A DNA stretch of 64,000 nucleotides, from assembly GCA_037447655.1 (NCBI GenBank), contig JBBHKE010000836.1, positions 184,001 through 248,000 on the forward strand, written 5' to 3'. The position numbers and the translations under genes are program-made. Source of the stretch: Zygnema cylindricum. Its lineage: Eukaryota > Streptophyta > Zygnematophyceae > Zygnematales > Zygnemataceae. The notes beneath the pieces were generated by a model that saw only the letters and a program-made list of their open reading frames with translations, made no database searches and had not been told where the DNA came from. Each line of letters opens with the position of its first letter. Within the stretch, counting starts at the first letter, position 1. Below are positions 6,126-44,827 of this stretch, in pieces.

Positions 6126-6577
6126 TCAACTAAACAACCCCATTTTTTGCCTGATGCAAGGTAACCCTAAGTGAATATCCAATGTGCTCTCATTGTGGAC
6201 CTCACGTAACGACAAAAAGTGAGTGTCTGCAACACTTTTATTCACATGTGGTTGCCGCAGTTTTATTACCGTAAACATTCGTCGGCTGTGTGAATTGCTA
6301 ATTTTATTATGACGGTCGACGTTCGCAAGCGTGGCAAAAGTTTAAGCGGTTGAAACAATATTTTGAGAGTCAAAGTTGTCCAACCGATTGACACTCTAAT
6401 TTAGACTGAACAGTGTTGAGCGTGCTTGGGAACCGTGAGGTTTGGGCAAGAGGTCCGAGGAGGTGTGCATAAGAAACTTGCATTCCTCCCCAAAAGCTGA
6501 TACTCCCCCTGATCCGTGACAATGCCCTTCTCTGTTCCTTTCCCCCCAAGGATAATGCATAGGTGATGATGAGGAAT
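6126..6577. other. No gene seen; probable 3' non-coding end of element C
   Basis: No convincing coding similarity. It follows the PHD-like region of C on the minus strand and is interrupted by copia A. A 3' LTR of C matching the 5' LTR region at 24513-25803 was not found, so C is truncated or its LTR has diverged. Confidence 0.4.
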
Positions 6578-6845
6578 TCAGTGAAAAAGAAAAAGTATTT
6601 CGTACCTTCTTCCCCCCCCAAATTCCCCCCCCTTCCTCTTAGTCTTGATTAAATAAGAGGATGAGATAAAATAGCCGCCAAATTCGCAGTCTCGAAAGAA
6701 CCACGAATTTCCGGGTTGAGAGCGAGACTCCGAATTGAGCGGTAGGCAGCAGTCATGCCACCCCTGGTGACAGTGTTCACACACCAACAGGAGGTCGAGT
6801 ACGTAGGACTGACATGCAAAGTAAGTGAGGTGGAAAGTTGGTTCG
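6578..6845 (-). pseudogene. PHD-like zinc finger at the integrase C-terminus of gypsy C
   Basis: The minus strand reads TFHLTYFACQSYV, then LLLVCEHCHQGWHDCCLPL, then GNSWFFRDCEFGG. Spacing and residues (LLVCxxCxxGWHxxCL, then a Pro/Gly-x-W-F stretch with a final Cys) match a PHD finger half. The first part, TFHLTYFA, repeats the end of the integrase C-terminal domain at 15357-15390, so this finger was originally downstream of the integrase. PHD fingers commonly read histone tails, so an integration-targeting role is inferred, not shown. The second zinc pair is incomplete. Confidence 0.65.
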
Positions 6846-6997
6846 TCCAACCTGCCTTTACTGTCACGGTGGTCGAACCGATGCACTCTTTTCGGCTATA
6901 ATAACCCCCGTTTGTTGGTTCTTTCCCCTAACCGGCGAGGTCGAAAAGAAATCTTAGCCCTTCACAATCTCCATGAGTTAAAGGTATAGAAGGAGTT
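6846..6997. other. Fold-back junction of ORF1 pieces inside element C
   Basis: Up to about 6930 the sequence reads on the minus strand like ORF1 of C (KERTNKRGLL..PKRVHRFDH, compare about 23800-23720). From about 6932 it reads on the plus strand like another part of ORF1 (RKEILALHNLHELK, compare about 24080-24040). Two pieces of one gene therefore meet head to head. The plus-strand piece continues after element B at 14757. Confidence 0.6.
6993..6997. repeat. Target-site duplication, left copy (gypsy B)
   Basis: GAGTT, matching 14757-14761 directly outside the other LTR. Confidence 0.9.
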
Positions 6998-7966
6998 TGT
7001 AATCGGATCTCCTACCTCTCAAAAAATCCCATTTCTTCAAACAATCCCAACCACACTTTCCACACATTGGAAAATACACATCCACATTGGACCACACTCA
7101 CATAAGGATAAACTTTAAATTAGAAGAAGCTTTTGTCCACATAACATTAGCTTGGTCTCTTGCCCTCGTGGCTCAACCCTTCTTATTAAAGTGTTTTCCA
7201 CTACTCTCCACTCTTAATAATTATATCTCTTAACTACTAAAACACTATTTAGTTAGTAAGAGATTTCAATATAAAAATGCCTTTTCTCCAATTTGGTATT
7301 AATCGCTGAAGACCAAGATCAGCCGGAATTTCCACAAACTTTTCCAAAGGAAAAGATGTCCACTCTCCTCTTACACTTCACTAATTATCCATCATCGCCT
7401 TGGACTCGCCAGACCAGAGTCAACGCTCCGTTTTAACCGGCTTTTACTTGGGCCAATCATTGATCAGCAAAAACTCAGACTGACTAATGCAAAAACGTGC
7501 GAAATCTCTTACTAACTACTTAGCACTTTACAAACCAATCAAACGTTACGTTTCACTACGTAACTTTTACGTGCAAAGGTGCGCGTTAAACGAAACGCGA
7601 CTTCTCATGATCGTGCGTAACAAATTTCGCACGCGAAACTTCTTTCGAAATTCCCTTAAGTGAAAGTGACGTTTCGTACTAAAATTTGTACGAAACGAAG
7701 CACCGTGTATACTAAACATTTCATTAGAACTTTATGAAACGTACATGCGTAATTTCGGAACTAATTTGACCCTTTACCCGTTTCAATGATACCCACTTGT
7801 TACTTAGACCCCACGCTGTCACCTAGATACACCCATCGCTATAACTTTTAAAATATAACTCCAAATAGCGTGATTCTTTTGCGGACATCTACCAAATTTA
7901 GTACTCTATAATCATAACACCTAAATACCCTTTTATAAACAAGTTCGATCCGCTATTATTGTTACA
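6998..7966 (-). repeat. 3' LTR of gypsy B
   Basis: Starts TGTAATCGGATC and ends TTGTTACA on the plus strand (TG..CA ends on both strands). A purine-rich stretch (sense AACGAGGGAATGA) lies immediately inside, at 7967-7979, as the polypurine tract. Confidence 0.93.
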
Positions 7967-8014: not shown

Positions 8015-9490
8015 TCAAGACGAGACTTCTATATTATTATCCCTCAAATACCTCTGTAAAAACTCAGAATTTTTATCCTCAAAAGTCAACTCATCCTCAG
8101 GCCTTTCTAGATAATGCACTTGCCAGAATATAGTATCGTTGACCTTGAACCGTTGACCAACCCAATCTATTACCCATCTGTGGACTTTAGGTTCTATAAT
8201 TATTGAGGGATCCAAATCCAATTCTCCTTCAGTTGGTCGAAGATTCTCTGGTTTCAATTGGCTGATGTTTATCACTGGATGAATTTTTGTTGAAGGCGGA
8301 AAGTCCAATTTGGCAGCAACTGACAATATCATCTCGATTACAGTAAATGGTCCAATGTAATTAGGAGCAAATTTCCCCGTAGGATCCGATTGTCCCTCAA
8401 TCTTGCACCTGTAATGAGTTGTAGAAAGCCAAACCTTGTCACCTGTGCGTAACACCCAATCACCCCGTTTGCGGTTAACATTTAATTCTTGCCTCCTTTG
8501 TGCCTCCACAAATGCATCCCGGATAGTTTTCCAAACTGTTTGAACGTATTCCCAAAACTTTGTTCCAGAACCTCTATTCTCTTGAGTGACCCCTGTTATT
8601 AAGTCTAATCTTTCTCTAGGTTGGTATCCGTATGAAACTTTAAATGGTGAGAATCCTGTACTAGCATGTTTACATGAATTGTATGCAAATTCCATTAAGG
8701 GCAGTTTAGATTTCCATGTGTTCTGAATTCCACTGCAAACAGTCCTAAGCATTTCTTCTAGTGTACGGTTCATACAATCTGTCCGTCTATCTGTCTAAGG
8801 ATGATAAGTGGTACTCATTTTCAATTCAGAGCCTAAATTTTGTTGTCATTCTTTCCTAAAAGCATACATAAATTTAGAACCTCTATCACTGACTATAGAT
8901 AGAGGGACTCCATGATGTCTGACCACGTTGTCAAAATATAACTTTGCAATATATACAACTGAATGAGTGGTTTTGTAAGGGATAAAGATTGCCATTTTAC
9001 TGAACCTATCGACTACGACCATGATGCTCTCATTTCTTTTAGATGTAGCAGGCAACCTGACAATAAAATCGATACTGACAGATTCCCACGGTCTTTCAAG
9101 GATATCCAAAGGTTTTAAAGAGACCTTTAGGTTTTTGGGTACTAGGTTTACTCTGTTGGTTTGGGACACAACTTTCCATGTGTTTTGACACATCCCTGGC
9201 CAAAGCAATCTACTTTGCAATCGACTAAGAGTTTTATCTCGACCTAGATGTCCTAAATGCTCATGAGCTTCCCATAAAATTTGTTTTCTTAAGTCTCCCA
9301 CTTGAGGAATGCATAATCTATCTCCAATTTGCAAATACAGTAAACCATCCTCTAGTCTAAAGTTTTTGACATGCCTCTCATTCAATGGGTCAAAATTCCC
9401 TCCCGAAATTTTCTTGCAAATCACAGCAAAATAACGATCTTTATCATAACCATTTCTAACAATATCTAAAAAAAAATCAACTTGAACCAT
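8015..9490 (-). pseudogene. Gypsy B integrase with C-terminal chromodomain
   Basis: 9490-8846: HHCC region with HEHLGHLGRDKT intact but the CxxC pair replaced (VVSQTNRVN). The integrase core has Asp in VSIDFI and Asp in VSDRGSKF. The third catalytic position, before MNRTLEEML at about 8780, reads TDCMNRT where TERMNRT is usual, so Glu has become Asp, and a stop lies in the preceding HPQTDG region. 8773-8015: integrase C-terminal GPFTVIE and KIHPVINISQLKP motifs, then a chromodomain-like tail (VIDWVGQRF..FWQVHYLERPEDELTFED). Chromodomains direct chromovirus integration to marked heterochromatin. Confidence 0.88.
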
Positions 9491-9499
9491 AACACTTAT

Positions 9500-10800
9500 T
9501 TAAAAACATATACTTAAAGGATATGCGACTACATTTGTTTTCCCAGTAATATGTTTGACATTAAATTTGAAATATGCTAATTTCTGCATCCACCTAACTT
9601 GTCTGCCAGTCATAAGTTGTGCATCACTTAATCTTTGTAAATAAGAGAGTACTTTATAATCACAGTGAAGTGTAAATTCTTTATTATGCAAATAACAACG
9701 CCATTTCACCAATGAATGTACAATTGCAAGTAATTCCTTTTCCTATGCTGTATAGTTCTTTTCAGCATCATTGAATTTTCTAGACTCAAAAGCAATAGGA
9801 TGAAAGTGTTTGTCGACTTTTTGACTTATAACTGCACCTAGACCTTTATCAGAGGCATCTGTAGTGATCAAAACTTCAAATTCCTCAGCAAGGTTAGGAT
9901 ACACCAGTGTAAAGCAGAGGTCAACTTCCTTTTTAGTTCCTCGAATGCTCCCTCGTGATCAGCTCCCCACACAAACGTCTCCTTCACCGTCAAAGGTGCG
10001 GCGATCATACTGAACTTCCTGATAAATTTCATGTGATAAGTGGTCAATCTCAAAAACGATCTAACTTCTGTGACATTAGTAGGTTGTTTCCAATTTTGGA
10101 TTTCTAAAATTTTGGATGGATGTGTTTTAACACCTTCCACACCAACTATGTGTCCAAAAAATAATTGTTCACTTTTAAAAAAGCTGGATTTTGACAGTTT
10201 TCCATATAATTTTCTTTCTCTTAACCTTTCCAACACTCTTCTTAAATGAATTATATGTTGTTCTTTAGATTCACTGTAAACTAAAATATCATCTATAAAT
10301 ACTTGGACAAACTCATCTATGTAATGTGAAAATGTTTGGTTCATTAATCTTTGGTAAGTAGGTGGTGCATTCGTTAAGCCGAATGGCATCACTATCCACT
10401 GAAATGACCCACCCTAGTACTGAAAGCAATTTAATCAACATGTTCAATTCTAATTGGCACCTGATTTAAGCCACTACGCAGGTCAATCAACGAAAATACT
10501 TTAGCACCTTTTAAACGATCTATCAAGTTAGAAATTAAAGGTAACGGATACTTATCCTTCACCGTAATCTTATTCAGACTACGATAATCAACACACATTC
10601 TCAACGTTCAGTCCTTCTTTTTGACGAAGAGAATTGGCAATCCGTACGGTGATTTGCTGGGCTGAATATGTCTTTTTCTCTAAGAGTTCATTGATCTGTT
10701 TCTTAATTCCTCATGCTCAAAGAAACTGTGCTTATAAATTCTTGTGACAAGAGGGTTACATTCAGGTTCAAGGTTAATAACATGTTCCACATCTCGAGAA
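9500..10800 (-). pseudogene. Gypsy B reverse transcriptase and RNase H
   Basis: Reads [20 protein letters not shown] at about 10560-10610, then MPFGLTNAPPTYQRLMN (from 10392), the active site FIDDILVYS at about 10280, then the RNase H/thumb region to 9868. RNase H continues to 9500 (FTLHCDYKVLSYLQRL and the ITGKTNVVAYPLS end). Stops between 10392 and 10700 and near 9860 break it. Catalytic YIDD-type residues (FIDD here) are kept. Confidence 0.9.
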
Positions 10801-13787: not shown

Positions 13788-14756
13788 TGTAATAGGATCT
13801 CCTACCTCTCAGAAAATTCCATTACTACAAACAATCCCAACCACACTTTGCACACATTGGAAAATACACATCCACATTGGACCACACTCACATAAGGATA
13901 AACTTTAAATTAGAAGAAGCTTTTGTCCACATAACATTAGCTTGGTCTCTTGCCCTCGTGGCTCAACCCTTCTTATTAAAGTGTTTTCCACTACTCTCCA
14001 CTCTTAATAATTATATCTCTTAACTACTAAAACACTATTTAGTTAGTAAGAGATTTCAATACAAAAATGCCTTTTCTCCAATTTGGTATTAATCGTTGAA
14101 GACCAAGATCAGCCGGAATTTCCACAAACTTTTCCAAAGGAAAAGATGTCCACTCTCCTCTTACACTTCACTAATTATCCATCATCGCCTTGGACTCGCC
14201 AGACCAGAGTCAACGCTCCGTTTTAACCGGCTTTTACTTGGGCCAATCATTGATCAGCAAAAACTCAGACTGACTAATGCAAAAACGTGCGAAATCTCTT
14301 ACTAACTACTTAGCACTTTACAAACCAATCAAACGTTACGTTTCACTACGTAACTTTTACGTGCAAAGGTGCGCGTTAAACGAAACGCGACTTCTCATGA
14401 TCGTGCGTAACAAATTTCGCACGCGAAACTTCCTTCGAAATTCCCTTAAGTGAAAGTGACGTTTCGTACTAAAATTTGTACGAAAAGAAGCACCGTGTAT
14501 ACTAAACGTTTCATTAGAAATTTATGAAACGTACACGCGTAATTTCGGTACTAATTTGACCCTTAACGCGTTTCAATGATACCCACTTATTATTTAGACC
14601 CCAAGCTGTCACCTAAATACACCCATCACTATAACTTTTAAAATATAACTCCAAATAGCGTGATTCTTTCACGGACATCTACCAAATTTAGTACTCAACA
14701 ATCATAACATCTAAATACCCTGTAATAAACAAGTTCGATCCGCTATTACTGTTACA
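13788..14756 (-). repeat. 5' LTR of gypsy B
   Basis: 969 bp, colinear with 6998-7966, with TGTAAT..TTACA ends. Confidence 0.93.
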
Positions 14757-14761
14757 GAGTT
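14757..14761. repeat. Target-site duplication, right copy (gypsy B)
   Basis: GAGTT, matching 6993-6997. Confidence 0.9.
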
Positions 14762-15356
14762 GGTGCAGCGAGTAGCTAGGTCAGACCGAGCCATGATTGT
14801 ACGCCCAGTGGGAGGTGGAGTGGAAATATTGAGCAATTCATCAAAGAGTGGCTCTTCAACCTCTGGTTGGGAGAAACAGGGGATGCCTTCGACTTCACAC
14901 CCGCAGCCCATCCGATCTCATAACAGTGCCACCAACAGATTGTTGAGGAGCTGGGGGACCTCTCGGGACCAGGCAAGGGAAGGAACCAGCAAACAGGGTT
15001 ACCAGAGCCCAAGGGAGTGCACCGATTCGACCACCATGACAATAAACGCAGGTTCACACCGGTTGTTAACGAAGAAACGTAACCTCCTGCCGGGCCAACC
15101 GCACCTGAAAAACCTCCTCCAGTTGCCTTAATTGTTCGACCTCCGCGAGGATTGTGGAGGACCATGGAAACAGATCAAGAAGTTTCAGACATAAGGATTG
15201 CAGATTTGACTAAGGTGGTTAGCAGGGCTTAGGATTTGGTGGAAATAGTGAAGTCACAGGGTCAGGCCCCGGGGGGGGGTGGACCAGTTACGGTGGATTG
15301 GGAGGCTTTAGAAAAAGAAAGGCGAGGTTTATGGGAACAGGAGGGCGGGTCTGCGA
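14757..15356 (+). pseudogene. Inverted ORF1 piece of the C family
   Basis: Plus strand continuation of 6932-6997. Reads ELVQRVARSDRAMIVRP..GGGVEIL, then SGWEKQGMPSTSHPQPIRS, then (after a frame change near 15130) RPPRGLWRTMETD and EALEKERRGLWEQ. It matches ORF1 of C at about 24030-23430 and of E at 42120-42330 but is inverted relative to C. It ends abruptly at about 15356, where minus-strand integrase sequence begins. Confidence 0.75.
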
Positions 15357-16560
15357 AGTAAGTGAGGTGGAAAGTGGATTTGTCCTTTAGCCTTCGCGGA
15401 TGGCAAGGGGCAACAGTGATTTGATTTTCTTTAATTTTGCGGCCATCTTTCCCTTCCAAGGTAAGAACGTGTTTGTTAGAGACCTCCACGACTTTCAAAA
15501 TCACCCGTCCAACCGAGATGTCCATATTATCCTTCTTTTGTTGCATGCGATACACAAAATCCCCGAGCACGAATCACCGTTGCGGAGGGACATAATTACC
15601 GCTCCGACGTTGGGTATACCAAAGCTGATCCTTAAGCTGAGCAGCCTATAAATTGCCCATAGCCAAAGGTATTTCTTGGTGAAATACCTTGGCCGTGTCG
15701 GCAATCACTTTCTCTACAGTCCCCCGGTTATCCATCTCCGGAAGCACAAATGCCTGAGGCGATGCAGCTCCAGGTAGGATGGGATGTCGGCCGAAAATAA
15801 TGAAGTAAGGGCTATACTAGTGGAGGGATGCCAGCCTCCTAAACCTCTTTCCCATGGCAATCAAAGAAACCCGTTTGTCCCATTCCCCCCAAATCCTCTT
15901 CCACTGCATATTTCCGTAGTGACCGCTTCACAATTTGTACTCACCTCTTGGCCAAGCTATCGGCTTGGGAGTGGTCTCCCCTGGTCAACCGGTGGTCAAT
16001 GAGGCACTTCTCTTGAAGGTTAGAAAATTCTCGGACAAACTCGGACCCGTGATCCATCAAATCTTTGGCCGTCGTCCGCGATTGCTTTGGACTCTTTTCG
16101 GGGGAAAACCACCAATTTTATCCATTTGGAGAAGTGTTCAATCATTACCAGAACAGAACGATTTTCCCTCTGGCATGTTGGAAGTAGTCCCAATAGATCT
16201 AGTGACCATCTATAAAACATCCCCCGGATGGGGAGGGAGTGAAGTTTCTTTCCACCTTTTGTGTTAAAGGTTGCTTTCACTCGGTCACAGAAAGGGCACG
16301 TCTGCACCACGTGGTTGACCTGGGCCCGCAACCCATGCCATAAGTACGACCGTGTGACCAATCAAGATGTCCGTTTTTGTCCGAAGTGCCCGCATTGCTC
16401 GTGAAGACGAGCAATGAGGGTTTCCCGATCTGTCGGAGGAGGCACCACTTTCCTTGTCCCATCGGCCCATTTCCGGAGAACAATGCCTCGATCCCATTCA
16501 TACGCCGCCATTCTGGTTTGAACACGCGACAAGTGAATTCCGGCCAGGTGGGTAAGAGGG
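15357..16560 (-). pseudogene. Gypsy C integrase
   Basis: Zinc-binding HHCC region (HEQ..GHFGQKRT at about 16400, TCPFCDRVK at about 16290), then the core: Asp in RWSLDLLGLLP (about 16200), VLVMIEHFSKWI, the second Asp region around 16040, and at about 15965 HSQADSLAKR then a stop, where relatives have a Glu in place of the Lys. The C-terminal domain is read at 15705-15357 (VYRMQQKKDNMDI..LTLEGKDGRKIKENQITVAPCHPRRLK). Stops and frame changes are frequent. The catalytic Glu-to-Lys change alone should inactivate it. Confidence 0.82.
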
Positions 16561-16779
16561 GTGCCTTTGTGGATGAACTGAAGGGAATCGGTATCATTCC
16601 AAATATCCTTGCGGCTAGCTCTAATGGGAGCCTACCCCTCGTCATCTGCAGCAAAAGTTGACAATTCTCCTTCAGCACGAGGCAGCCAAATAAAGGCAAA
16701 GGAAGCCCGGATAAGTCCCAGGCTAAGCTCTGGGTCTTCATTGTGCCTAGCCCAGTAGAGTCTCTAGTGGAAGGGTCTA

Positions 16780-17988
16780 GATTCCTGCTGAGTCCGTCTG
16801 CATTTCCATGAATCTCCCCTGCTCGGTGGATGATGGTGAAATCGTATTCGTGCAGTAAAAGAACCCATTTGACGAGCTTAGCGGTCAACTTACTGTTCTC
16901 CATTATCCATTTGAGGGGCTGGTGATCTGTAATAAAGTTGAAGTGTACTCTATAAAGGTAAGGCTTGAAATGTTGGATTGCTTATAGTGCGACGAGTAAT
17001 TCCCCGTGATAACTACTATAATTCCCCTCGCTTCTATTATTGCTCCGGCTTGCGTATGCCACTATGTACTCCGTCCCTGCATCGTCCAATTGAGCAAACA
17101 CTGCTCCTAATCCGAACCTGCTCCAATGAGTAAAAACGAGGAAAGGTCGTTGGTGATCGTGCATCAAGAGCACAGATGCTGTTTGAGGGAATCTTTCATG
17201 AAATGGAAAGCGATCTCTCGTTCTTCTACCCACTACCACTCCTGGTCCTTTTGCAATAACAGATTCATTGGCTAGGCGTGGCTACTGAATTTGGGAATAA
17301 AACTCCAGTAATAGGCCTGACCTAGGAAAGCGCGAAAGGCCAAAATGTCTTCCGGGGGTGGAAGGGCGTCTAAGGGCTACCACCTTAACCATGTGGGGAC
17401 CCACCGTCCCAGGAGTCACCTCATGACCCTGATAAATGATTTTCTGCACCCAAAGATGCCCTCAATCTGTATGTGCTCCAAGTGTTTTTCGAATGTCTGG
17501 GAAAAAATGATCATCATCGATGTAACACCGTGCGCAATCAATTTCTCGGAGGGCCTCATCTATAGCCCGTTGGAATATGGCAGGTCCATTTTTGAGGCCA
17601 AATGGCATGAACAGCCACTCATACAACCAGGATCCTGCCCAAAAAGCTGTCCTCTCGCGGTGCTTTAGCAGCATTGCAATCTGGTGGAATCCATTCTTCA
17701 TATCCAATGTGGAGTAAATGGTGGCCCTAGCCGGAGAGTCGAAGATCTCTTCTAGGTGGGCATGGGATAACGGTCAAAGAGAGTTGCCTCGTTGAGCATC
17801 CAATAGTCCCCACACATCCGGAAATCTATCGTTTCTCGGATGAGTCTTTCTTTGGCGGAAGCACAGTTGGAGAGGCAAACCCATGTTGCCTTGTACTTTC
17901 GTGCACCAACCCAGCGTCCACCAAAGTCTGCACCTTTGTGGTGATGAACTCCTTCTCCTTGAAGCTGAGAGGGTACTATTTCTGCCAA
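16780..17988 (-). pseudogene. Gypsy C reverse transcriptase and RNase H
   Basis: 17988-17752 has DFRMCGDYWMLNEATLFDRYPMPT; 17707-17462 has MDMKNGFHQIA, FMPFGLKNGPAIFQRAID and the active site CYIDDD. RNase H at 17239-16982 has FTHWSRFGLGAVFAQLDD and YASRSNNRSEGNYSSYHGE; the first catalytic Asp of this family (FTDWS) is His here. The end, YDFTIIHRAGEIHGNADGLSR, is at about 16850-16790. The domains are broken by frameshifts. Confidence 0.87.
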
Positions 17989-18399
17989 ACAGTCACTGTC
18001 TCATCGGTCAGGTAAATGCAAAAAGGGGTCCCCTTATAGATCCCTACATCTGTGTCAGATCAATAGAACAACTGCCCGTTCTCCTCTAACAGCTTCGAGA
18101 GCAAGGCCATGTGCGGTGGGTCTAGCTATTCCCCTTGAGTCCACTCCATCTTCCTGGGTTCCACAGCTGTCAATGCTTTTGGTGGTCAACCCAGAGGGAG
18201 ATGTCGAATTTAAGCTCTACCTAAGGATCTGTCCCTTTCTAGGCTGCAAAAACGGTGCTTCTAACAACTTCTTGTTTTTGAGCCTCCGCTCACCCCCACT
18301 GAGGAAACTCTTGGGTGTAATTTAGTAAATTGTTCCCTTCTTGCCTCTCTTCCCCCCTCAAGCTCCAGAGTAACTTGCATGGCCAACAACTGTGGAGCT

Positions 18400-19430
18400 T
18401 GAAGGTATATTGCCCGTGACTTTTGGGACTGGAGGCTGGAGAATGCGAGAGAATGTTCCTGCACCCAAAAAATTGCATTCAAATCTATATTTTGCCCGAT
18501 TAAACTGCAACTTTTTAAAGCTAAGACCCTTGGGGCTGCTGTGGTTGCCTGTAGAAATCCTATTGCTTGTTCCCGTTCCTTAATAGTCGGTGTTGTCCAC
18601 GTCGCGGCTTTAGCCTCAAATATCATCCTTGGTGCGCCTTTTCGGTAAGCATGGCTGTTGGGAAATGATACTAGGGTTGGTAGAGCCCTCCATGGGTTTC
18701 GGGGATGATTGCAACAGAAGAATGGTGCTCGGTCGGCTTTGGTCACGGGGGTGGCCATTCGCCCTGGGCCAAGAATCTGTTGAACTGTGAAGCTGGGATC
18801 TGGAACCTATATTTTCAACTGCTGTTGGAGGATGGGAGGAGGAACCAAGTTGGTCCAATAATCCCGAACTCTATGGGCTCTTGATCCGATCTGAGCAGCA
18901 TCAAAAACTATGGGAGTCTCTAAAACCTTGGTCACTTAGTTCCTGCTGTTGACCACCTGTTTCCTTTTATCATCCGTGGGGTGATTATTTTCTAAGACGT
19001 ACCCCACTGGCGTGTCATGGGGTCCATGTAACTTTGTTATCAGTCGCGTCATCTGAAATAATTTTCTGCTACAGACATCCTGGTGTCCCTTGCCTTGTCA
19101 TGCTAACGAATACCCCTGGCATGGCCATCCAGCGACCACCAAATCTACCCTTCCAAGCATCTCCAAATGTGACTTCGTGATGTTGTCCACATTCAGGGGA
19201 AGAGTGCGGTGAGAGTTAGACATGGCTGACATCGGGAGTTGTTGTGGGTAAAGTTGGTGCAGTTGTTGTATTCGATACTCACTCACTACACGGGTTTCCT
19301 AGTCAACCTCATTTGCCGAGTACGCTTCTACTCGGTATCCAGATATTAGAACAACTTGCAGGTCGGAACTAATGTCGGATAATAGTGATAGAATTCTGAG
19401 TCTTGAAGGCTGGATCTCCAGTGACACCAC
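18400..19430 (-). pseudogene. Cytosine-5 DNA methyltransferase domain of gypsy C (broken)
   Basis: One continuous minus-strand frame of about 340 codons, with four in-frame stops, shows C5-methyltransferase motifs in order. Motif I: RILSLLSDISSDLQ at about 19366-19405, where FSGIG is expected. Motif II: YRVEAYSANEVD. Motif IV with the catalytic Cys: DLVVAGWPCQGYS at about 19100-19140, then SLA-stop-QGKG. Motif VI: GYVLENN for ENV. Motif VIII: FDAAQIGSRAHRVRDYWTNL. Motif IX/X: TIKEREQAIGF..ATTAAPRV and LIGQNIDLNAIFWV. The domain lies between protease and RT. It would methylate cytosine in DNA, probably the element's own or its target's; target is unknown. Motif I glycines are lost, so it is inactive. 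Confidence 0.88.
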
Positions 19431-19559
19431 TTGTCGATTGAAATCCTTCTCTTTGTTAGGAACCTTTCGAAGTTCTCATCGGATAACCTTTGTTGTTCCG
19501 GATAATATAGCAGCAAAGCTCTTATCCACTTCCCGCCGAAGTGTGGACATCTTTTCCAA

Positions 19560-20460
19560 TCTGTTTTGATACTCCCTTTCCCACCGTAGGGAAATAGTGA
19601 ATTGCTAGATGGAATCAACGATATCGGTGGAGCCTTTGAACAGCTCCGAAGGGGTGGATGCAAAGTACACGGGATAGCATCCAGATACCGGAACATTTAT
19701 TCTCCCCCGATTCCATAAATCCAAGGGGACCACCACTTTGGTGCCCTCGCGATTCTCCAGATCTGAAACTGTAAATTGTTCCTTCCAAACGCTTGATTCC
19801 AAGTTCAATCTTGTCCACGTAGCCATACCCAACAAAATTTCATATTGCTTACCTTCCACCACAAGGAAGGGAAATTGAATTTTTACGTGTTGTCCCGCAT
19901 CATCCGCAAATTCGATTTCCATTGCTTTTATGATGCCATATACTCGTTGGCTACCATTGCTGACCGTACTCAGGCATATGTCACTTGGGTTGTTTTTTGG
20001 CCTGAGTATTTCGGGCATTTGTTGCAATGATGAGGTGGTTATGAGGTTAGGGAGGGCTCTAGTATCCACCACTGCATCCTAATACCCGCCATCTCTATTA
20101 AGTTTAAAATTTCCGGTTCTGTTAAGAATAAGAGCCACCGACATGGCCTTATAATCTCTATCCGCCATAGAAGTTTTTGGTTCCACCGACATGAAGATTG
20201 TCTTGGGTGGTTCTGCCAACGCTACCTTTTCCCATTTGGTGTGAATCTCTTCCACTAGTGCTTGAATGAGGGTTTCTTCGGGCAAATTGTGGGAGGAAGC
20301 TAGCGTCTTGATGTGCGTCAGCTGATAGGGCATCAGGTGCCGTACTAGCATAACTGCCGGTTTGGAGGAAGGAGGGTGAGCTTTGGGCGATGAAATGGGT
20401 GAGTCCTCGTCTTCCAATTTCTCCTTTATCCCCCCCCTGCTTCCTCACTTTCTGTGTCAA
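19560..20460 (-). pseudogene. Gypsy C protease region
   Basis: 20417-20079 is a Pro/Glu-rich pre-protease segment (PKTSMADRDYKAM..VALILN). The active site reads AVVDTRALPNLIT at about 20050 in place of DTGA. The second half is VEGKQYEILLGMATWTRLNLE at about 19850-19790. 19696-19346 continues as a spacer (NFERFLTKRRISIDKW) into the methyltransferase by a frame change. DTG to DTR should inactivate the protease. Confidence 0.8.
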
Positions 20461-20639: not shown

Positions 20640-21640
20640 AGGCCCAGCCCAATGTTATTGTTTAAAAGAACTGCTCTTGGTATGAAGGATAAAAGACCGG
20701 TGGATTGCGCTTGTGGTCCTTTTGTTCCATCGGTTGTTTATCTTTCCTCTGAGAGGATGTTGAAGAGCGCAGTTGTCTGCGATTGTTCCCGATGCCAACG
20801 TTCTAGGCTACGGACAGAAATGTCTGAGCATGATGAGCCTTTGGAGGCTCTATATCCCAACCCATCATATCATCATCTCCACCCAATGTGGTCTGCTGTT
20901 CCAGCTCCGCCAGCCTTTGAAGCAATTTTTTTTTTCTGCAATTTTTGAGCTGGCGTTAGAGGTTGATGTATGCCGGCATTCGATCCCAAGCGCAGAGCAG
21001 CCAGTTATGCTGCCAAGGCGGCCAATTGAGTGCTTTGTTTCTGAATGATATGTTTCGGCGTCAATCTGCTAGATCGTGCTTCATCGAGAGATCGACGTCC
21101 CCGGGGATACAAAAGTTGCATTGGCAGAGGATTAACAGTTGTTTCCCTTTTGCTCGTGAACAAAGTATATTGCAGCATTTCTTTTGGGACCCCATTCTTC
21201 CGAAAACATTGCCCTTCTTTGTGGCCCATAAACCCAGAAGGGTCACATTTAGACCCCTCAAAGGTACACTTCCCCCTTAGCTCATTAGATATCTAAGTAT
21301 CATCAAATTTAGGAAGTCTGATTTGTCTCAACTAGGATTGAGACATCTTCGTCGTCTCAGAGCGGGGAGTAGGTTTATAAGTGTCTTGGGTGACCGGTGT
21401 GTGATCCCCTCTTCCGTCTCCCTGCCTGCGTTCCTGCTGCTTGCGAGTTCTTTCTACACGTTATTTCTCAAACTCCTTTTGCTTGATACCGCGTTCCGAG
21501 TTAAGCTTCCTAGGGCATCTCTTCCACTCGTGACCGGTTTGGTTGTAGTTCGGGCAGTTGTACAGGTAAACTTTTTCATCCGCACCCATTGCAGGTTTAG
21601 GTCTTGTCTCGGCTTCATGTTTCCCCTTAAGCTTCCACAA
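20640..21640 (-). pseudogene. Gypsy C nucleocapsid and gag tail
   Basis: A zinc-knuckle-like motif is read at about 21500-21560 (YNCPNYNQTGHEWKRCP, second Cys replaced by Tyr). A second Cys/His cluster is at about 21190-21250 (SKCDPSGFMGHKEGQCFRK). The tail has a repeated-acidic segment (GGDDDMMGWDIEPPKAHHAQTFLS) at about 20820-20880, colinear with E at 45380-45450. Frame changes are present. Confidence 0.75.
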
Positions 21641-21769
21641 AGCTTAGAGTTTTGTTTGTTCCTCTTGGTTAAGAGAGGATTTCATCTTGAAACCTCCGAA
21701 GTTGGCTCGCGCTTTGCCGGTAATAGCTTTTTCTCGAGCTTCCGTGTTTACAAAATGATCATATAATTT

Positions 21770-22287
21770 CATACCGGCCAATGAAATTTCTAGCACCGTG
21801 GATTCTTGTTGTGGATTGCCTGACTCGCACTCCAATTGTCGAGAGCGGTCTGTCCTGTTGGTCCAAATGAATTTCAAACAGTGACATAATATTTTGTGGC
21901 CATGGCTGGTGTGTCAATGTTAGACAACTTGGTCTTTTGACAAAGGCTTGAGAGGTGGTTGAACAACGTCTGGGGAGTTTCATTTTTCAAACATCGAAAG
22001 TGCGTGAACTCCTTCATTGCAGTTTTGTTCCTTTCTGTATAAAGGAGTCTCCAGGCGTCCAAAAGAGTGGTGCAAGGAGTTGGATTGGCAACCATCCGGG
22101 TGGCTACCTCGGCGGCTTGTACGGCCTGCAGATGGTTAGCATAGGCCCTCCCTTGGGCCTGCAGTTTCATGTCCATATTGAAAGTGGCGATAACACGACT
22201 TGCTGCTGCGGCAGCCAGGTCAGCGGCTGTGTCTAAGGCTTCGGCGTCAAGCACTGGATCTGAGATTTTGATGTTGGGAGCCATCAA
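21770..22287 (-). pseudogene. Gypsy C capsid
   Basis: 22287-21874 is open (APNIKISDPVLDAEALDTAAD, then AANHLQAVQAAEVATRMVA-like, then LLYTERNKTAMKEFTHFRCL, then TLFNHLSSLCQKTKLS), the retrotransposon gag fold region. It continues with stops to about 21650 (KMKSSLNQEEQTKL). Element E has the same protein at 43960-44640. The frame starts at MAPNIK at about 22281. Confidence 0.83.
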
Positions 22288-22309
22288 AGAGGGTTGACAC
22301 TACTTATAG

Positions 22310-24512
22310 TCCGCTAAAACTCCTCCGCCTAGATAGTTTACCATCATAGGGAAAAGAGTGGTCTCAAAATCCGCGGGGATGGCCCCTCCCCTTTATTTGT
22401 TTATTTTGGATTCTTTGAAGTGTTTCCACAACAGTTCAAAATCACAAAAAGCAATTCTCCAGTTGTCCCATGTGAAGATACAGATGTCCCCCATTCTCTT
22501 TTCCTCCTTAGTAGGGCTGGTAACCGGGATGAGGCCTATCTGATGGGGTTGACAAACTAAGCTGGTGAGATCGCTCGGGGATCTGCTACCTCGGGATTTG
22601 GCGCGACCCCTCCTCAAATAGGACGGACGGTAGTAGTAGCAATGGTCCCCCCACCCATTGATGAAGGTCTTACTCTTGAAGAAAATGGTTGGTCATCTGC
22701 TCCTTTATATTCAGGAGAGGTAGGTTCTTCCCAGAGAACAATCTCCACCAAGGGGATGTGAACACAAGGTTGAGGTCCCCAGGGAACGGATGGCGGCGGA
22801 GACGGTGACGACTAGAATATTGGAGGAGAAAGTGTTTGTCTCTTGTAGGGTGTCTGTTTCTTGGGCCGGGTCTAGGAACCCTTGGAAGGAGGAGTTCCAT
22901 TACTAGAGGATGGGGATCGCCTGTGAGGAGGTGATTAAGCGATGTATTTGTAAAGTAAGACAGACGGATCCGGTGACCCGCACAGTACTGCAGCTAGAGA
23001 AAGGGGTGGCGAAGGAGAAGATGTAAGAGCAAGGGATTCTAGAGATTGTCTGGCTGTAGAAGCGCGAGGAGTGGATGCCCTCAAGGGAATGTGAACCCTT
23101 TTGTCTGGCCGTAATTCCACCAAGGCTTCTAGTGCAAAGGCGTCTTCCACCAAAACAATAGTCAACACTACTAGAGGAGAAGCAGCAATGTTAGGAAGTA
23201 TATTTGCACCCAAACCCTTCCCATTAGGTCTTGTGGTTCCACCCCCTTCCTGCTAAAGAAGGGTATCTTGGTCAGTCTCCGAAAAGGCATCCCTAGTGGC
23301 GTTTCCGAGATAGATGTGGGTTCCTGAATTCGTGCTCCAGGGTATGGTCTTGTCCCACGACAAGTGAACATTTGCACACTGGGAAGTCCACGAGACCTAT
23401 GCCTTGCTTCTTGTATAAGGTTCAACTCATGTTCCCATAAAATCCGCCTTTCTTTTTCTAAAGCCTCTCAATCCACTATAACTAGTCCACCCCCCGCGGG
23501 GGCCTGACCCTGTGCCTTCACTGTTTCCACCAACTCCTGAGTCCAGCTAACCACCTTAGTCAAATCTGCAATCACCATGCCCGGAACTTCTGGATCTGTT
23601 TCCATGGTCCTCCACAATCCTCTCGGAGGTCGAACGATTGGGGCATCTGGAGGAGGTTTTTCTAATGAAGTTGGCTCAACAGGAGGTAATGTTTCTTCCT
23701 TAACAACCGGTGTGAACATGCATTTATCGTCAGAGTGGTCTAACCGGTGCACTCTCTTGGGCTCTAGTAAATCCCGTTTGCTGGTTCTTTCCCCTGCCCG
23801 GTCTCGAGAGGTCCCCCTTCTCCTCGACGGTCTGCTGGTGGCAGTGTCTTGAGATCTGATGGGCTGGAGGTGTGAAGTCAAAGTCATCCCCTGTTGCTCC
23901 CGGACTAAGGTTGAAGAGCCACTCTCTGATGAACTGTTCAATATATCCACTACACCTCCCATTGGGCGTACGATCCTGGCTCAACTTGACCTTGCTTCCC
24001 GCTGCAACAACTCCTTCTTATCCTTCAACTCATGGAGATTGTGAAGGGCTAAGATTTCTTTGCGACCGGGCCGGTTAGGATCTACTAAAATTTTGGGATC
24101 AATGTACATCTCCGCTATTGGAGCCTTAGAATCCCACTTTGGGAGGGTGACCGGGGACCGATTCCTTATGTGCCTAGCCCTTCCTACGTGATTTAGGGGA
24201 TAATGTCTGTCTCTCCTCCTTCTCCGCGGCCTTAGATCTGGTCGCCTCGGACAAAGTTGGGAAATTCTCAGGGGAAAAGACCGGAGGAGGGTAAGGAGAG
24301 GGTTGTCTCTCTAGGTGTTTCGGAGGAGTCTCAACTACAGTAGGCTCAAGCATCATTCCCTTAAGAAACTGCTCTATGTTTAAAGCCCAGGTGAATGAGA
24401 CTGCTTCCTCGGGCACTTGTGACTCTTCCTCTTGTGCCACTGCTTCTTGCCTCTCTCGTTCTTCCTGACTAACATCGAAAAGGTCTCTATACTCAGCTTC
24501 TCCTCTGCCCAT
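22310..24512 (-). pseudogene. ORF1 of the C family, unknown function
   Basis: Starts MGRGEAEYRDLFD at 24512. Acidic Glu-rich start, then Pro-rich and Ser-rich low-complexity segments. Two conserved blocks are shared with E and the inverted piece: RKEILALHNLHELK (about 24080-24030) and RPPRGLWRTMETD..IADLTKVV (about 23640-23540), followed by EALEKERR. Several stops and frame changes, notably near 24000, 23465 and 23170. It precedes capsid, so it may be an extended N-terminal Gag (matrix-like) region. I recognise no domain. Confidence 0.6.
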
Positions 24513-25803
24513 GACTTACCAGAACAGAAGAGCTAGATCTCTCTATAAAAGTACACCACCCTAATCAGCTATCCTCTTTAACTAAAAAGGACATTGGTGG
24601 CTTTTCAGTATTGTGCTTAACCACCGGAAGCCCACTAAATGCTACACCCCCTACCACTCTCCAAAGAATAGAAAGGAAATGCGAGTGGCTAGATCCGGCC
24701 CAAAAGAGATCCGGACAAAAACCAAAGACGACCACAAGAATGTGCAAATAACTCCCATACAGAAATATAGAAATAATATATATCGGCTTTTCAGATTATA
24801 CAATATCACCTTGCCCTAGAGAATGGAAATAAAGATGGAATAAATAATAATGGTGAAGGGAACTCACATACCTCAGAGTACAAAGATGACCAAACTTCAG
24901 AAGAAGAAACTCTTCCAATGGCCCCGAAGATAGGTATAAGTCTCCCTCACCCCTCGGTTCCGCCGTACGGATAAGATTAGACTCTTCTAAGTTTCAAATA
25001 GCGAAATTCCAAACCGCCCAAAAGAGAGGATAGTGCGAACTACCCACCCGAGCTATTGTCTCCACAAAAGAAAATCCAAAATAAAGATGGCAATAGAGTC
25101 CACGACATCATGCAATAGTTCTCCAACAGAAAGATTAATTTAATTCTCTCGGGTTTTTCTCACGAGACAGTACTGAAAAGCAACCTGTCTCCATCGCCCC
25201 CAAGTGCCTTATACAACCAAAGTTTGTCCTAGTGCAAGTGCCAAAGTCAAAGCAAGGCCAAAAGCCAATCAGTGGCCAGCAATTGTTATCTTGATGACAT
25301 AAGACAAAACAGGCTGTACTACACTCAAGGCAAAAAGTTAGACGACTGGCTCCTCCTAGATTAGCAGCCAAAGGTCCTCCTATTGTACACTATTAGGCAA
25401 CAAAGTTCTGAATTGACGTGAAACGCCTAACTTTGACCCTAAGTTTTAAATGCTCTGCTTGCCCGTTGGGCCTGAACTAAAATCCTACTGACGGCTAACA
25501 ACAATATCTATGGGACAATCCCAAAGGTTGCGTGCCATTTTACAATGTACCCCTCGGCTAGAGCTACATAGAACAGATGCCATGTAATGGAGTTAACACC
25601 TTTGCACGAACTAACTCCGCCGTTCGACCTCTGTTTAAGGTGAACTAAAGTGCCTAATGCTCCAAGGTGGAAATACCAAGATCTGATCCGGCTGGTTGTC
25701 CTCCCATTCTCCGTACACTGGAGTTTGTACAAGGTGGGATGAGGCTCCAAAACTCTTAGGAGCGCAAATGTGTTGAAGATGCACACGAGCTTGACAACAG
25801 TAC
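24513..25803 (-). repeat. 5' LTR and leader of gypsy C
   Basis: Homologous to the start of E (40372-41669). Shared blocks include LECSTxxFVLC-coding sequence at about 25330 versus 40840, and CTAGGGCAAGGTGATATTGT at about 24795-24820 versus 41340-41360. The left (sense) edge probably reads TGTTGTCAAGCTCGTGTGC at about 25803. The LTR/leader boundary cannot be fixed because both copies run straight into ORF1. Confidence 0.6.
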
Positions 25804-28259: not shown

Positions 28260-28985
28260 AAAATCTGTTATACTCTTATTTTTTCTATCTAATTATGTAA
28301 CTAATGTAATTATCTATCTAATCTAGTTATCTCTAATCTAATTATCTATCTAATCTTATTATCTATTTAATATAATTCACTATCTAATTTAATTATCTGT
28401 CTAATTATCTGTCCAATTACGTGTCAAGTTATCTAATCTAATTATTTGTCAAATTATCTGTCGAATTATCTGTCTAATTATCTTGCCATCTATTTGTCAT
28501 ATTATCTAATCTAATCTAATTATCTATTTGATCTAATTATCTATCTAATATGATTATCTATCTAATCTTATTATCTATCTAATCTAATTCACTATCTAAT
28601 TTAATTATCTGTCTAATTATCTGTCCAATTATGTGTTAAGTTATATAATCTAATTATCATATCAAATTATTTGTCGAATTATCTGTCTAACTATCTGTCA
28701 AATCATCTAATCTAATTTTCTGTCTAATTATTTGTCCGATTATGTGTTAAATTATGTAATTTAATTAGCTTATCTAATTATCTGTCAAATTATCAGTCTA
28801 ACTATCTGTCAAATTATCTTATCTAATTATCTGTCTAGTTATCTGTCCAATTATGTCTTAAATTATCTAATATAATTATCTTATCTAATTATCTTTCAAA
28901 TTATCTAATATCTAATTACCTATCTATTTATCTGTTTAATTATCTGTCTAATTATTTGTCTATATATCTATCTAACTATCAGTGT
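28260..28985. repeat. TCTAATTA / TCTGTCTAATTA low-complexity tract
   Basis: About 700 bp built from variants of CTAATTATCTGT, TCTATCTAATCT and TCAAATTATC. It is organised in longer imperfect repeats: 28330-28500 and 28530-28720 resemble each other over more than 100 bases. It has no coding potential. Confidence 0.85.
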
Positions 28986-30165
28986 ATCTATGTGTCTATC
29001 TTGTCATGCCTCATCGTATCGTTGTATGCACGCACGATTTTTAGCACGCACCCGCGATATTTGACGCGTGGCACGATATCATGCATTCACACACAATTTC
29101 CGTACGCACGTAGGATGTCGATTCCCATGCTTGATTTTCGCATTTTCATTGATACCATATCGTCAAATCATCTATTTGTGACGTGTACGCAATTCGCATG
29201 CACGTTTCGTTGAATATATACTAATTTCGTGCGATATGTTTTGTTTCGTGGGTAGGTATGCGATTTCGCACTATGGACGCGAAATATCGTTTGGGCGACA
29301 CAACGCAATTTGCGGGAGTAGTATCGACGCTTCAATATACATTCATTTGTTTAAGTCGCGAACCCATGTAGGTTCGCGCATACATGTAGTTAGGGAGGGT
29401 TTTTACCCTTGGACAGTGGATATTGTTATACATACATCACTCGATGTTGGCCGCCTATTCGCCAACATCTTAAGTTGTTTCATTCATATAAAGAAGGCTC
29501 TACTTAGGCTAGTTTCGCGCTAGGCGTAGCTTAGTCCCTACTTAGGCTAATTCTCAGACTTAGAGAATTTAGCTTTTGGACAAAAAAATTCTCTTGGCGG
29601 CGGAGATTTCTCTTGCTCTCTCTAACCGATTGCTCAAGATTTCTCTTTCTTACTGCTAGCTAGCCATAGAGGCTAGATAGGTTAAGAATATTTGCCCTTG
29701 TATTTCTGCCCACGTTTTTAATCCACACCGCCAAAGGCCACGTCCAGAAGGTTTCCCTCCAAGCTTTGTCATTTGGTGGAAGTGTTAGAGTAGAGACTGT
29801 GGGGAAGCACATCTAGACCTTGTTGTGCCTTCTTCAAGCAGCTGAACAGTTTGGTTCTGTTTTTGTGGTTTGTTTATGTTTTGGTTGGCCTGGAAGGAGT
29901 GTATTTTTAAATTGGATTTTCCCTTGTATTCGTTAGGAATATTTCTTGCTTTGCTGCCATGATGAGATAACTCTTGTAGAGAATGTGACAAAGACCATAG
30001 AGCCTAGTGGCTACCTCTTGGCTTAGCATTCTTCTCCAAAAGGCAAAAGTCTCTCTTTAAAAATAAATTATTAAAAATATATATTTTATTTTATAAAAAA
30101 AAAACATATTGTTTTTGTTTTCATCTTTCTTGCTTTCAATCCTTGTTTTCTATCGTGCTACCACC
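28986..30165. other. No gene recognised
   Basis: Includes a CpG/ACGC-rich part (29020-29250), a plus-strand open stretch 29236-29523 with no family resemblance, and an AT-rich tract at 30056-30115. Confidence 0.35.
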
Positions 30166-30596: not shown

Positions 30597-31340
30597 ATGC
30601 GTGATTTGGCATTTCGCTATCAAGATCAATTTGATTTTCGTGCAACATTCTCTCTTCAGGGTCGCTACCTCAGAGGTTCGGCCCTTACATTATATTACCG
30701 CAAATATGATGCTATACTCGTGATGACAAAATTTTCCCCTCCTTTTGCAGGTACACCAAAGGTCATGGGACAATTGGATATCCCATATTAGGGTGATTTT
30801 CCCAAGGTCTTAGATGCCCAAGGTAATGTCTTTATTCACGCCATCTCAAAAATTCCTTGGCAATATGTCGTAGCCGCGCGTGCTACTATCCCAACACAAC
30901 CTAAGATGACAATTACGTTGCAAGACCCCCTTTTTGTCATGTTGGATGTGTTAGAAGCAGAGTATTGCATGTAAAACCCAAATCAATTGAAGGAATTGAT
31001 GAATTTCAAACGTAAACCTGGTGAAACCGCCCCTGCTTTACGTGCTTGCATGGAGACTCTGCGGGAAGCTTTACCGGACGTAATGTCCAATGTTGAAGCT
31101 GTTTTAAAATTTGTTGGACCGTTTACCGATCAATTAAAAAGATGTATACAAAGTCAACTCACTCAGACTTACAGACTGAAATTCACCTTTGATCAAGCCG
31201 CTCAATATGCGGTTGAATATGAGATGCAATCTTGTTGGTGGGAAGCTCATGATCGTTTGGAAGTAGCTTCCGCACTTTCCCCACCAAACAACCCATGGCC
31301 CATTAATAGGCCCAGTTACTTTCGAAAAGGGCTCGCCTGA
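30597..31340 (+). pseudogene. Gypsy-like gag fragment K
   Basis: The plus strand has two open pieces split by stops near 30790 and 30973. The second (30987-31340) has MNFKRKPGETAPALRACMETL, then a LPDVMSNVEAVLKFVGPF and FDQAAQYAVEYEM pattern typical of the retrotransposon gag family. No zinc knuckle was found. No LTR was identified for K. Confidence 0.55.
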
Positions 31341-31514
31341 CCACAATCGAGACGATAAATTGCAAAATTCCCGATTTCCATTTTCATTCAAGAAAAAATC
31401 TCTCTCTCCTCTACCATACACGGCTTCCTTATTGTGGCTGAAGCTCTCACTATTCTTGATAGCACCAAATATGATGCGCATCGGGTCAAAGAATAGCTAA
31501 GCATCCTCTCAGCT

Positions 31515-31957
31515 ATGATGGATGAGGTTAAAGCCTCTCCTCTTGATAATGAGGTTCCGAAAGCATCTCCTACAGTTAACAAAGTCACTACAACCACCGT
31601 TTTGAAGGCGTTGCAGCTGAACCGTAGTCTTTCGCTTATTTTGCCGGTCATGGCAGATGAGCATCGTAACCTTGACCCTCATATTAGTTTTCTGGACAAC
31701 TTCCAGAAGTCCTTCTCCATTAATGGTGTTGCTCCTTTCCCTCTCATGGACACCAAAGTCAAACGCGTGATCCTCGGATCTGGATTCGCGCTTAAGCTTG
31801 GTATTACCGCAGACAAGCTCCAAGCCACCACTACTTGCCTTCTCACTTTAGCTGGTACCACGAAGCCAGTGCTTGGAATCCCGATGGACCCGCTCGTCTT
31901 TCGTTTTTAAAACGGAACCAAAGGCAAGACCATGGAAATATCTTTCGAGACATTGGT
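31515..31957 (+). pseudogene. Protease-like fragment of K, cut by copia I
   Basis: Plus strand, 31515-31910 open. The stretch KRVILGSGFALKLGITADKL resembles a retroviral-type protease loop in which DSG has become GSG, followed by GTTKPVLGIPMDPLVF. It runs after a stop to about 31957, where the LTR of copia I begins. The assignment rests on a short motif and gene order. Confidence 0.5.
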
Positions 31958-33016
31958 TACAACTCTGAGACTTCCATTGGTCCTCAAAGTAGGCACCTCA
32001 CTCGAAGCCCCTAAGATAACCTTAACTCCTTTGAGTTTTCAAAAAAATAACTGCCACCTTGACAGATAAAAACTTTGACCAACTTCCCCCATGTGAAGAC
32101 AAGACTCCCGTGAGTCAATAGCAAAATGAATCTCTGAATCTGCTACCCTAAGAAGTAAGTTATAAAGGGTCAAAGTTGACCTTTTGTATAGGAGCACTCT
32201 GGGAGAGAGGGGTCTACCTACCAAATTTTCTAAGTCTTAAATCCCGCTCTAAACCCTATTCTTCTAGAGTACGGCACCAATCAGATTATTGTGTGATAGA
32301 AAAAAGTACAAGTGTAAAAGTACTTTTTGTACGGCCATCGTACGGGATGGCCAAAATGTTGGTGCCTGCCATATCCGGATTTGTTACTGTATTCTCTGGA
32401 GATGCCCAAGCCAATGTGGTTGTGCCACGTGTCACTTGACATGGCGATGACAAAATACCACCAAAGCGCCCATTCCGCGATCTCGACATCTATCGCGGCC
32501 GTTCGATCAAGATCGACTTTTAATTCTAGCCGTGGAAAATAATTGCGTGGTATTTGTTTCGCTGTCGAAACAAATGCGCGGTATTCGTTTCGTGGAGTAT
32601 CATACACCGTACTATACAAAACTGTATCTATAACATAAGAATTTGTTCGCGTTGTTAAATGAAATTGTCTACGTATACGTGTATAAATAATTAATAAACC
32701 GTGATTAGCTTAGCACTGATCCTAGACTAATAAGATAAAGCTATCGGCTCCTTGTGACTTAACGAACAGCAGGGTACCAGGATCAAATCTTCAGTTCGCC
32801 AAGTTCCCTTTTGGTAATCTTACCAAATTACTACCTGTCTCTCTTTGGCCAACATACGCGGCCATGGCTCTAGTTCCCTCTCCAACCTTTATTGACTGCG
32901 ACGAGTGTGGGAGTTGAAGAGAGGAGTTAGAGGCAACCTGCCTCTGCTTATTTTGTGCACTTTATCTTTACAAATTTTAACCTAGAAAATACTAAAAATA
33001 ACCTTTAGTTTCTACA
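31958..33016 (-). repeat. 3' LTR of copia I
   Basis: Sense strand begins TGTAGAAACTAAAGG at 33016 and ends near GAAGTCTCAGAGTTGTA at 31958. 1059 bp, related to the H LTRs. It keeps the gag-start block (ATGGAAGTCTCAGAG), a GGTCAACTTTGACC palindrome at 32168-32181 and a tRNA-like block near 32735-32810. The polypurine tract AAAATAAGGGGAG lies just outside, within 33017-33033. Confidence 0.85.
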
Positions 33017-44790: not shown

Positions 44791-44827
44791 AGAGGACTCG
44801 GAAGCAGTAAGAACACATTGAAGGAGA

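Follow-up and report, generated by a model that had tools for sequence, protein, structure and literature searches.

Why would a transposon retain the type of enzyme that normally silences transposons? This question is raised by a 64,000-nucleotide stretch of the Zygnema cylindricum genome (the window; G000:C626:184001-248000), in which a sequence-only reading had placed a DNA cytosine methyltransferase (DNMT) inside a Ty3/Gypsy retrotransposon. We followed this reading through the assembly (352.8 Mb, 2,689 contigs). Our favoured answer, which we consider likely, is that the window contains a dead member of a large family of Ty3/Gypsy elements with a DNMT3-type DNMT in Pol, and that this enzyme would be made by stop-codon readthrough, packaged, and act mainly on element cDNA. 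Directly observed are the domain order, the copy number, purifying selection, a TAG kept in subfamilies A and B (the subfamily letters are our own naming), and split terminal repeats. A retained leaky stop would set the timing and amount of DNMT made. DNMT-bearing Gypsy elements were known before (PMC5890265); added here to the sequence-only reading are the conserved stop, the split repeats, a second domain layout, a PHD-like end, and a branch with the motif ECQ.

A decayed cytosine methyltransferase within a Gypsy element

The minus strand of the window carries a decayed Ty3/Gypsy element between 15.3 and 25.8 kb, in the order terminal repeat A1, gag-like region, protease, TAG, DNMT, reverse transcriptase (RT), RNase H, and integrase. 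Repeat A1, the 5′ end of the element, spans 24621–25796, starts with TGTCAAGC, and is 82% identical to A1 of copy C1374, which contains the naturally open locus L009. The gag-like region (21185–23258) is spread over three frames and matches a 716-aa open frame of L009 at 34–82% identity in tblastn, and the aspartic protease frame (19608–20444) is 82% identical to L009:2977-3813, a segment that matches PF13650 below the cut-off (E = 2e-4). The DNMT region of ~429 codons (18318–19604) is broken by stops and has its catalytic domain at ~18405–19397, as placed by PF00145, DNMT3A, and open-copy matches. RT and RNase H follow, frame-shifted (16751–18194; 53–79% by piece in tblastn with the L009 pol, whose RT/RNase H part matches PF00078, PF17917, and PF17919), and then integrase (H2C2 and rve) with the start of its C-end (15316–16751; 73–83% in tblastn). 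The copy is cut at its 3′ end near 15334, where the nucleotide match ends (corresponding to C1374:31225), ~150 bases short of the pol stop. Protease (20444–19608) and RT to integrase (18194–15316) thus flank the DNMT on the same strand, as had been described from the letters alone.

The minus-strand DNMT frame has residue 1 at 19604. The four in-frame stops previously counted within 18400–19430 are all present (first bases 19301 TAG, 19100 TGA, 18938 TAA, and 18809 TAG), and two more lie just outside (19478 TGA and 18263 TAG). With X at the stops, the translation narrowly passes PF00145 (E = 7.8e-5; 22.7 bits against a cut-off of 22), and DNMT3A chains are its best PDB matches (E = 1e-9, residues 70–284), in agreement with the earlier C5-methyltransferase call. 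It reads GWPCQGYS and GSRAHRVRDYWTN, which we take to be motifs IV and VIII, respectively. Motif I has decayed to LSLLSDISS, against LSLFSGISS in the open copy, and ENV to ENN. The frame is not a chance one, since the DNMT stretch is 77% identical to open copy L009, with five stops in the matched stretch. We are all but sure that minus-strand 18400–19430 is a decayed C5 cytosine methyltransferase within a Gypsy element. Judged by sequence comparison of copies, the TAG at 19607–19605, directly ahead of the DNMT and followed by CAATTC, is a conserved feature and not decay.

Further pieces of the family lie elsewhere in the window. An inverted fragment of the 5′ region (14757–15343, plus strand) is 84.5% identical to 23426–24013. 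Sequence matches place a 3′ fragment of another member, with PHD-like region and repeat B, at 6414–6859 (minus strand), and a 5′ fragment of another, with repeat A and gag-like region, at 40846–45470 (plus strand); the latter is truncated after the gag-like part, and tblastn found no DNMT match in it. The upstream portion of a subfamily C member (ECQ type) occupies 31032–31961 on the plus strand, at 60–67% identity to L017.

Open copies, subfamilies, and selection

A PF00145 profile search of the assembly returned 123 matches, all over the cut-off, from 123 scored out of 782 candidates; a second branch is part of this set, and host genes may be too. Searching with the L009 DNMT stretch, where 98 candidates were scored out of 2,015, gave 100 matches with identity down to 64%, and at least 98 places with close kin. 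Because only part of the candidates was scored, these copy counts are lower bounds. Less damaged copies, which the sequence-only reading had proposed to seek, exist. L009 consists of a 279-codon protease frame, TAG, and then a 1,520-codon frame in which DNMT, RT, RNase H, and integrase are read together (Pfam matches PF00145 at 48.9 bits, PF00078, PF17919, PF17917, PF17921, and PF00665). All Gypsy Pol domains are present in L009, with the protease below the Pfam cut-off, and fragments of all of them occur in the window. Upstream of the protease, the 716-aa gag-like frame (L009:136-2283) has no Pfam match.

Three subfamilies are distinguished by motif IV: PCQGYSLA in subfamily A, to which the window copy belongs; PCQGYSQA in B (L015, L022); and ECQGMS in C (L012, L017, L018, L020, L028, and others). 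In L017, protease, DNMT, and RT are read in one frame without a stop before the DNMT. All four subfamily C rows from the host have ECQ and seven A rows have PCQ, while the 89 database rows comprise 49 PCQ, 17 ECQ, two other, and 21 missed by the pattern. Glu-Cys-Gln in place of Pro-Cys-Gln is unusual among C5 methyltransferases. ECQ-type DNMTs in open frames were seen in L012, L017, L018, and L028, and in database proteins P0005-P0026, P0044, P0073, and P0088.

The L009 DNMT domain matches DNMT3A (E = 1.2e-14), HhaI (4e-5), and DRM2 (1.5e-3, with only part of DRM2 matched). An AlphaFold2 model of the L009-type DNMT, built with 22 sequences, has a pLDDT of 91.6, and its best Foldseek matches are DNMT3B and DNMT3A (E ~1e-20, TM 0.70 by query). 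By these matches and the predicted fold, the open-copy DNMT is of DNMT3 type, inside the Pol open reading frame and in the same frame as RT. DRMs are plant DNMT3s with rearranged motif order. The motifs here run I, IV, VI, VIII, IX, X by eye, and this plain order rules out a DRM.

DNMT dN/dS values (NG86, naturally open frames) range from 0.12 to 0.41 in 15 usable of 55 pairs (38 saturated, two identical); since L023 equals L024 and L010 equals L011, just eight of the 15 are distinct comparisons. RT values range from 0.02 to 0.26 in the five of 66 pairs with dS below 1.2, leaving aside 11 pairs of L021, whose row is the RT of a neighbouring element on the opposite strand. The use of open frames could lower these ratios slightly. 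By this comparison, purifying selection acts on the DNMT at a strength fairly close to that seen for RT, which answers the selection question posed with the sequence-only reading. At least 98 places with kin, open frames shared with RT, RNase H, and integrase, and purifying selection together make the DNMT a part of the element, as that reading had held. The window copy shows more C-to-T change in CG and CHG than in CHH, and transversions differ in equal proportion; a C-to-T test for past methylation accordingly gave no signal, with ts/tv equal in CG, CHG, and CHH (p = 0.97).

A conserved stop codon ahead of the methyltransferase

The window has ATC-TAG-CAA-TTC at the junction of protease and DNMT, as does L009. 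Within the first locus set, every one of the 14 sites fitting a QFxI..W frame is TAG-CAA-TTC, in eight distinct contexts including the window; the pattern required CAR-TTY and left the preceding codon free, and chance matches in L007 and L025 were set aside. We then compared 150 bases from each of 40 further copies, mostly higher-ranked, drawn from the 77 of 100 L009-DNMT matches that start at residue 1 (seven of the 77 belong to the first locus set). The stop is kept in 40/40, as TAG in 39 and TAA in one. The first codon after it is CAA in 39 and the second TTC in 39; the third varies silently (CCT 25, CCG 11, CCA 2, CCC 1, plus a single CTT), and the residues QFPIS are kept as protein.

The same signature recurs across the genome. 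TAG-CAR-TTY-CCN-ATH-TC occurs 310 times, against once for its reversed control, although not all of these sites are tied to a following DNMT. Searched without the TAG, CARTTYCCNATHTC occurs 680 times and its reversed control 3,889 times, so that many of the remaining sites may be chance. The TAG-preceded share, 310/680, is 46%, against a one-codon expectation of 1 in 64.

With the frame past the stop kept as protein, the stop itself kept, and no AUG shared among copies (see below), readthrough is the simplest reading, and the sequence comparisons make programmed readthrough ahead of the DNMT probable. It would not be universal in the family, given that subfamily C copy L017 has no such stop. 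RNA folding after the stop gave no consistent structure in the eight copies analysed (z from −0.4 to −1.1 in seven, −3.7 in L015). The type I readthrough signal of tobamoviruses and other plant viruses is UAG-CAR-YYA, as described in PMC3542737. The UAG-CAA-UUC of the element fits five of the six downstream positions of that description; its last base is C and not A, a departure from the consensus, and the setting is a retrotransposon. By analogy, the stop may work in a manner resembling type I readthrough, and we do not count it as a member.

Terminal repeats, integrase, and the PHD-like end

The repeats of this family are split. C829 (subfamily C) and C1374 (subfamily A) are arranged A1-body-B1-GC-A2-B2, where A starts with TGTC and B ends with GACA. 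C1042 has B1-A2-B2 with a shorter A2, and its A1 end lies outside the sequence examined. All four 5′ ends seen, window A1 among them, begin with A and have no B ahead. The window copy is cut before B; the split arrangement is known from C1374, C829, and C1042. In C829 the A repeats share 99.64% identity across 1,388 bases, indicating recent insertion, and by eye AAGG stands on both sides of C829 as a target duplication, one of three copies checked, with none at C1374 or C544. C544 stops after B1, and in C507 body sequence comes after B1-A2. At C1374:31633-35348, ahead of B1, 3.7 kb of other sequence is enclosed by duplicate stretches of the pol end with repeat B, which could reflect nested insertion or template switching.

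PAT-type elements have split direct repeats, A1-body-B1-A2-B2, and a tyrosine recombinase. The Zygnema element has this repeat order in common with them, but it has a DDE integrase, TG..CA ends, and a 4-base target duplication in one of three copies. The integrase D, D, and E residues are retained in 8/8 aligned rows, and a Pfam scan of three open frames of L009 found no tyrosine recombinase. These DDE residues, together with the single target duplication, point to the integrase as the enzyme of insertion. The K. nitens element discussed below is described as having DIRS-like repeats and Gypsy domains (PMC5890265, Fig. 4 legend), and the split repeats here look like the same oddity, as far as that legend describes it.

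Inverted terminal repeats were considered and rejected, as the 588-base inverted pair of the window is absent from A copies C1374 and C544 and is a rearrangement. Inverted pairs also surround the DNMT loci at L020:329-1289 / 8645-9608 (964 bases, 97%) and L027:2189-2471 / 8112-8396 (289 bases, 77%), so inverted arrangements are possible in some copies.

The extreme C-end of the L009 pol gives a sub-threshold match to the PHD finger (PF00628; E = 0.0044, 17.5 bits against a cut-off of 24) and aligns with database relatives P0018 at 41% and P0023 at 35%. A C4HC3 pattern was found in six of nine relatives scanned (P0005, P0006, P0013, P0016, P0018, and P0023), all of the layout II defined below; the same scan did not find it in P0001, P0012, P0020, or L009.

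Relatives in other algae and comparison with known systems

A first protein search returned 26 proteins, including Klebsormidium nitens P0020, Closterium sp. NIES-54 P0025, Haematococcus lacustris P0024, and P0019, whose record code Chrzof1 we assume to denote Chromochloris; a second returned 63 shorter proteins, one of them from Closterium sp. NIES-53. The 26 proteins with two or more domains divide into nine with DNMT before RT (layout I), ten with RT before DNMT, and seven with DNMT before integrase and no RT match. RNase H sequence precedes the DNMT in four of these seven, and all seven were counted as layout II. The two layouts separate in the DNMT tree (35 rows; support 100/99) and in the RT tree (28 rows, L021 left out; 94/92). 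When the DNMT tree, without the long or duplicate rows P0025, L018, L028, L011, and L023 and without cellular algal DNMT3s, is rooted on a DNMT3A fragment, layout II forms one clade (100/98) nested among layout I, with weak deep nodes. The trees are compatible either with one relocation of the DNMT within Pol or with separate captures of two close relatives. P0020 (KFL_009030040) falls on the layout I side in both trees, again with weak deep nodes and no cellular algal DNMT3 in the tree. A scan of IMG/VR with the DNMT alignment found 15 loci, whose best segments are 28–61% identical.

The charophyte retrotransposon that the sequence-only reading mentioned is real: KnitGypsy-Dnmt3 of K. nitens (de Mendoza 2018; PMC5890265) is the closest known system. 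As described there, it shares with the Zygnema element a Gypsy Pol, an intron-less, unrearranged Dnmt3-type DNMT in the Pol open reading frame, DIRS-like repeats, and purifying selection; its reported Ka/Ks is below 0.2, whereas the Zygnema values, likewise purifying, are often above 0.2. The K. nitens protein P0020 has the same layout and groups with the Zygnema elements, which differ in host lineage and in having at least 98 carrying places, a conserved TAG, a PHD-like end, and PCQ and ECQ branches. In the main text of PMC5890265 the term 'PHD' does not occur, and 'stop codon' occurs once, of premature stops. SymbioDIRS-Dnmt3 and SymbioLINE-Dnmt of dinoflagellates are also retrotransposons with a DNMT, but they are DIRS or LINE elements, unlike the Gypsy element with DDE integrase described here (PMC5890265). 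SymbioDIRS DNMTs are reported to perform de novo CG methylation in yeast (PMC5890265).

Among green algae, PMC5890265 describes DNMT-Gypsy elements from K. nitens only, and a 2025 survey again lists streptophytes and dinoflagellates (PMC12344493). An opinion paper that pools adenine and cytosine methylases already lists green algae and charophytes among the hosts of Gypsy and DIRS elements with a methylase (PMC6338049), and we have lowered our claim on host range accordingly. For the conserved stop and the second layout, our searches of the open-access literature turned up no report; a literature search on REM1 of Chlamydomonas likewise gave no match.

Proposed mechanism and alternatives

We propose that most ribosomes would halt at the UAG after the protease, yielding Gag-protease, and that a small fraction would pass it to give a fusion with DNMT, RT, RNase H, integrase, and the PHD-like end. 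Such a fusion would tie the amount of DNMT to that of Pol and carry it into the particle together with RT; if readthrough occurs, packaging has a high probability. In the particle or the nucleus, the DNMT could then methylate freshly made double-stranded cDNA, either ahead of integration or during it, so that a new copy would look like host DNA on arrival; the PHD-like end of the integrase may take part in selecting chromatin. We infer that the DNMT is catalytic in these elements. That element cDNA is its main substrate we regard as close to an even call.

More tentatively still, DNMT-Gypsy elements may form an old superfamily spread across green algae, one branch of which acquired a leaky stop, restricting the DNMT to Gag-Pol and to action in the particle on its own cDNA. 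Within this superfamily the DNMT would have changed place once, from a position ahead of RT to one next to a PHD reader, flanked by RNase H and integrase. If so, DNMT-Gypsy is not an oddity of K. nitens.

The DNMT might instead act on host or target chromatin, taming or silencing the element or its neighbours, a possibility that we take seriously while finding it rather doubtful. A PHD-type finger beside the integrase, sub-threshold in L009 and a clear C4HC3 in six layout II relatives, could tether the enzyme, and K. nitens elements are themselves methylated (PMC5890265). Packaging with Pol, however, would put the DNMT beside cDNA first.

Nor need the enzyme be made as a fusion: the DNMT-RT frame is long and self-standing, and could be expressed as a separate protein from an internal start or a spliced mRNA, with the TAG merely closing the first open reading frame. 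We checked seven open or nearly open A and B copies for a start. Four of them (L009, L010, L013, and L024) have their first AUG at codon 19 after the stop, as this alternative would allow, but L015 has its first at codon 96, and L026 and L027 have none within 110 codons, although motif I already lies at ~codon 70. With AUG at 19 in A copies and at 96 in L015, an internal start can be dismissed for some of the copies but not for all. The retention of QFPIS as protein right after the stop, with silent change at the third codon in the 40 copies, also speaks for translation across the stop, and we judge a separate protein unlikely.

Less probable still is that the DNMT is inactive cargo. The K. 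nitens domain gave no methylation in yeast, a result its authors call inconclusive (PMC5890265), and in Zygnema purifying selection near the RT level and motifs kept across lineages oppose this view. A host DNMT gene invaded by Gypsy fragments, the refuting case named with the sequence-only reading along with absence of the DNMT from other copies, is refuted by the at least 98 places that carry it and by the recurrence of this domain order among several copies and in records from other species, with nothing found in its favour. A host that decodes UAG as an amino acid would account for its retention in many copies, but this is likewise scarcely credible, since under the standard code the L009 pol runs for 1,520 codons without a stop and L012 for no fewer than 2,155, which rules out an alternative genetic code.

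Other features of the window and assembly

Several observations lie outside the element. An exon of a TRRAP-like gene in the assembly matches land plants at nearly uniform identity (62–69%; Physcomitrium 69%, Riccia 68%, Nelumbo 68%), with no named alga among the 120 listed of 397 matches, which most likely places the host among streptophytes other than land plants; rbcL, tried as a host marker, gave no match. A second Gypsy element lies at 8435–10778 of the window (minus strand). It carries RT, RNase H, and integrase, the pol query found no DNMT in it, and it offers a DNMT-less neighbour to compare with. Window positions 7210–7966 and 14000–14756 form a repeat pair, 97% identical, that resembles part of the 3.7-kb stretch in C1374, and at 28287–29007 a diverged ATCT-type tandem repeat runs for ~700 bases, with higher-order periods of 111 and 212 bases. 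Elsewhere in the assembly, PPR-repeat matches are clustered on single contigs (G000:C185, C717, and C2152), resembling the restorer-type PPR clusters of land plants.
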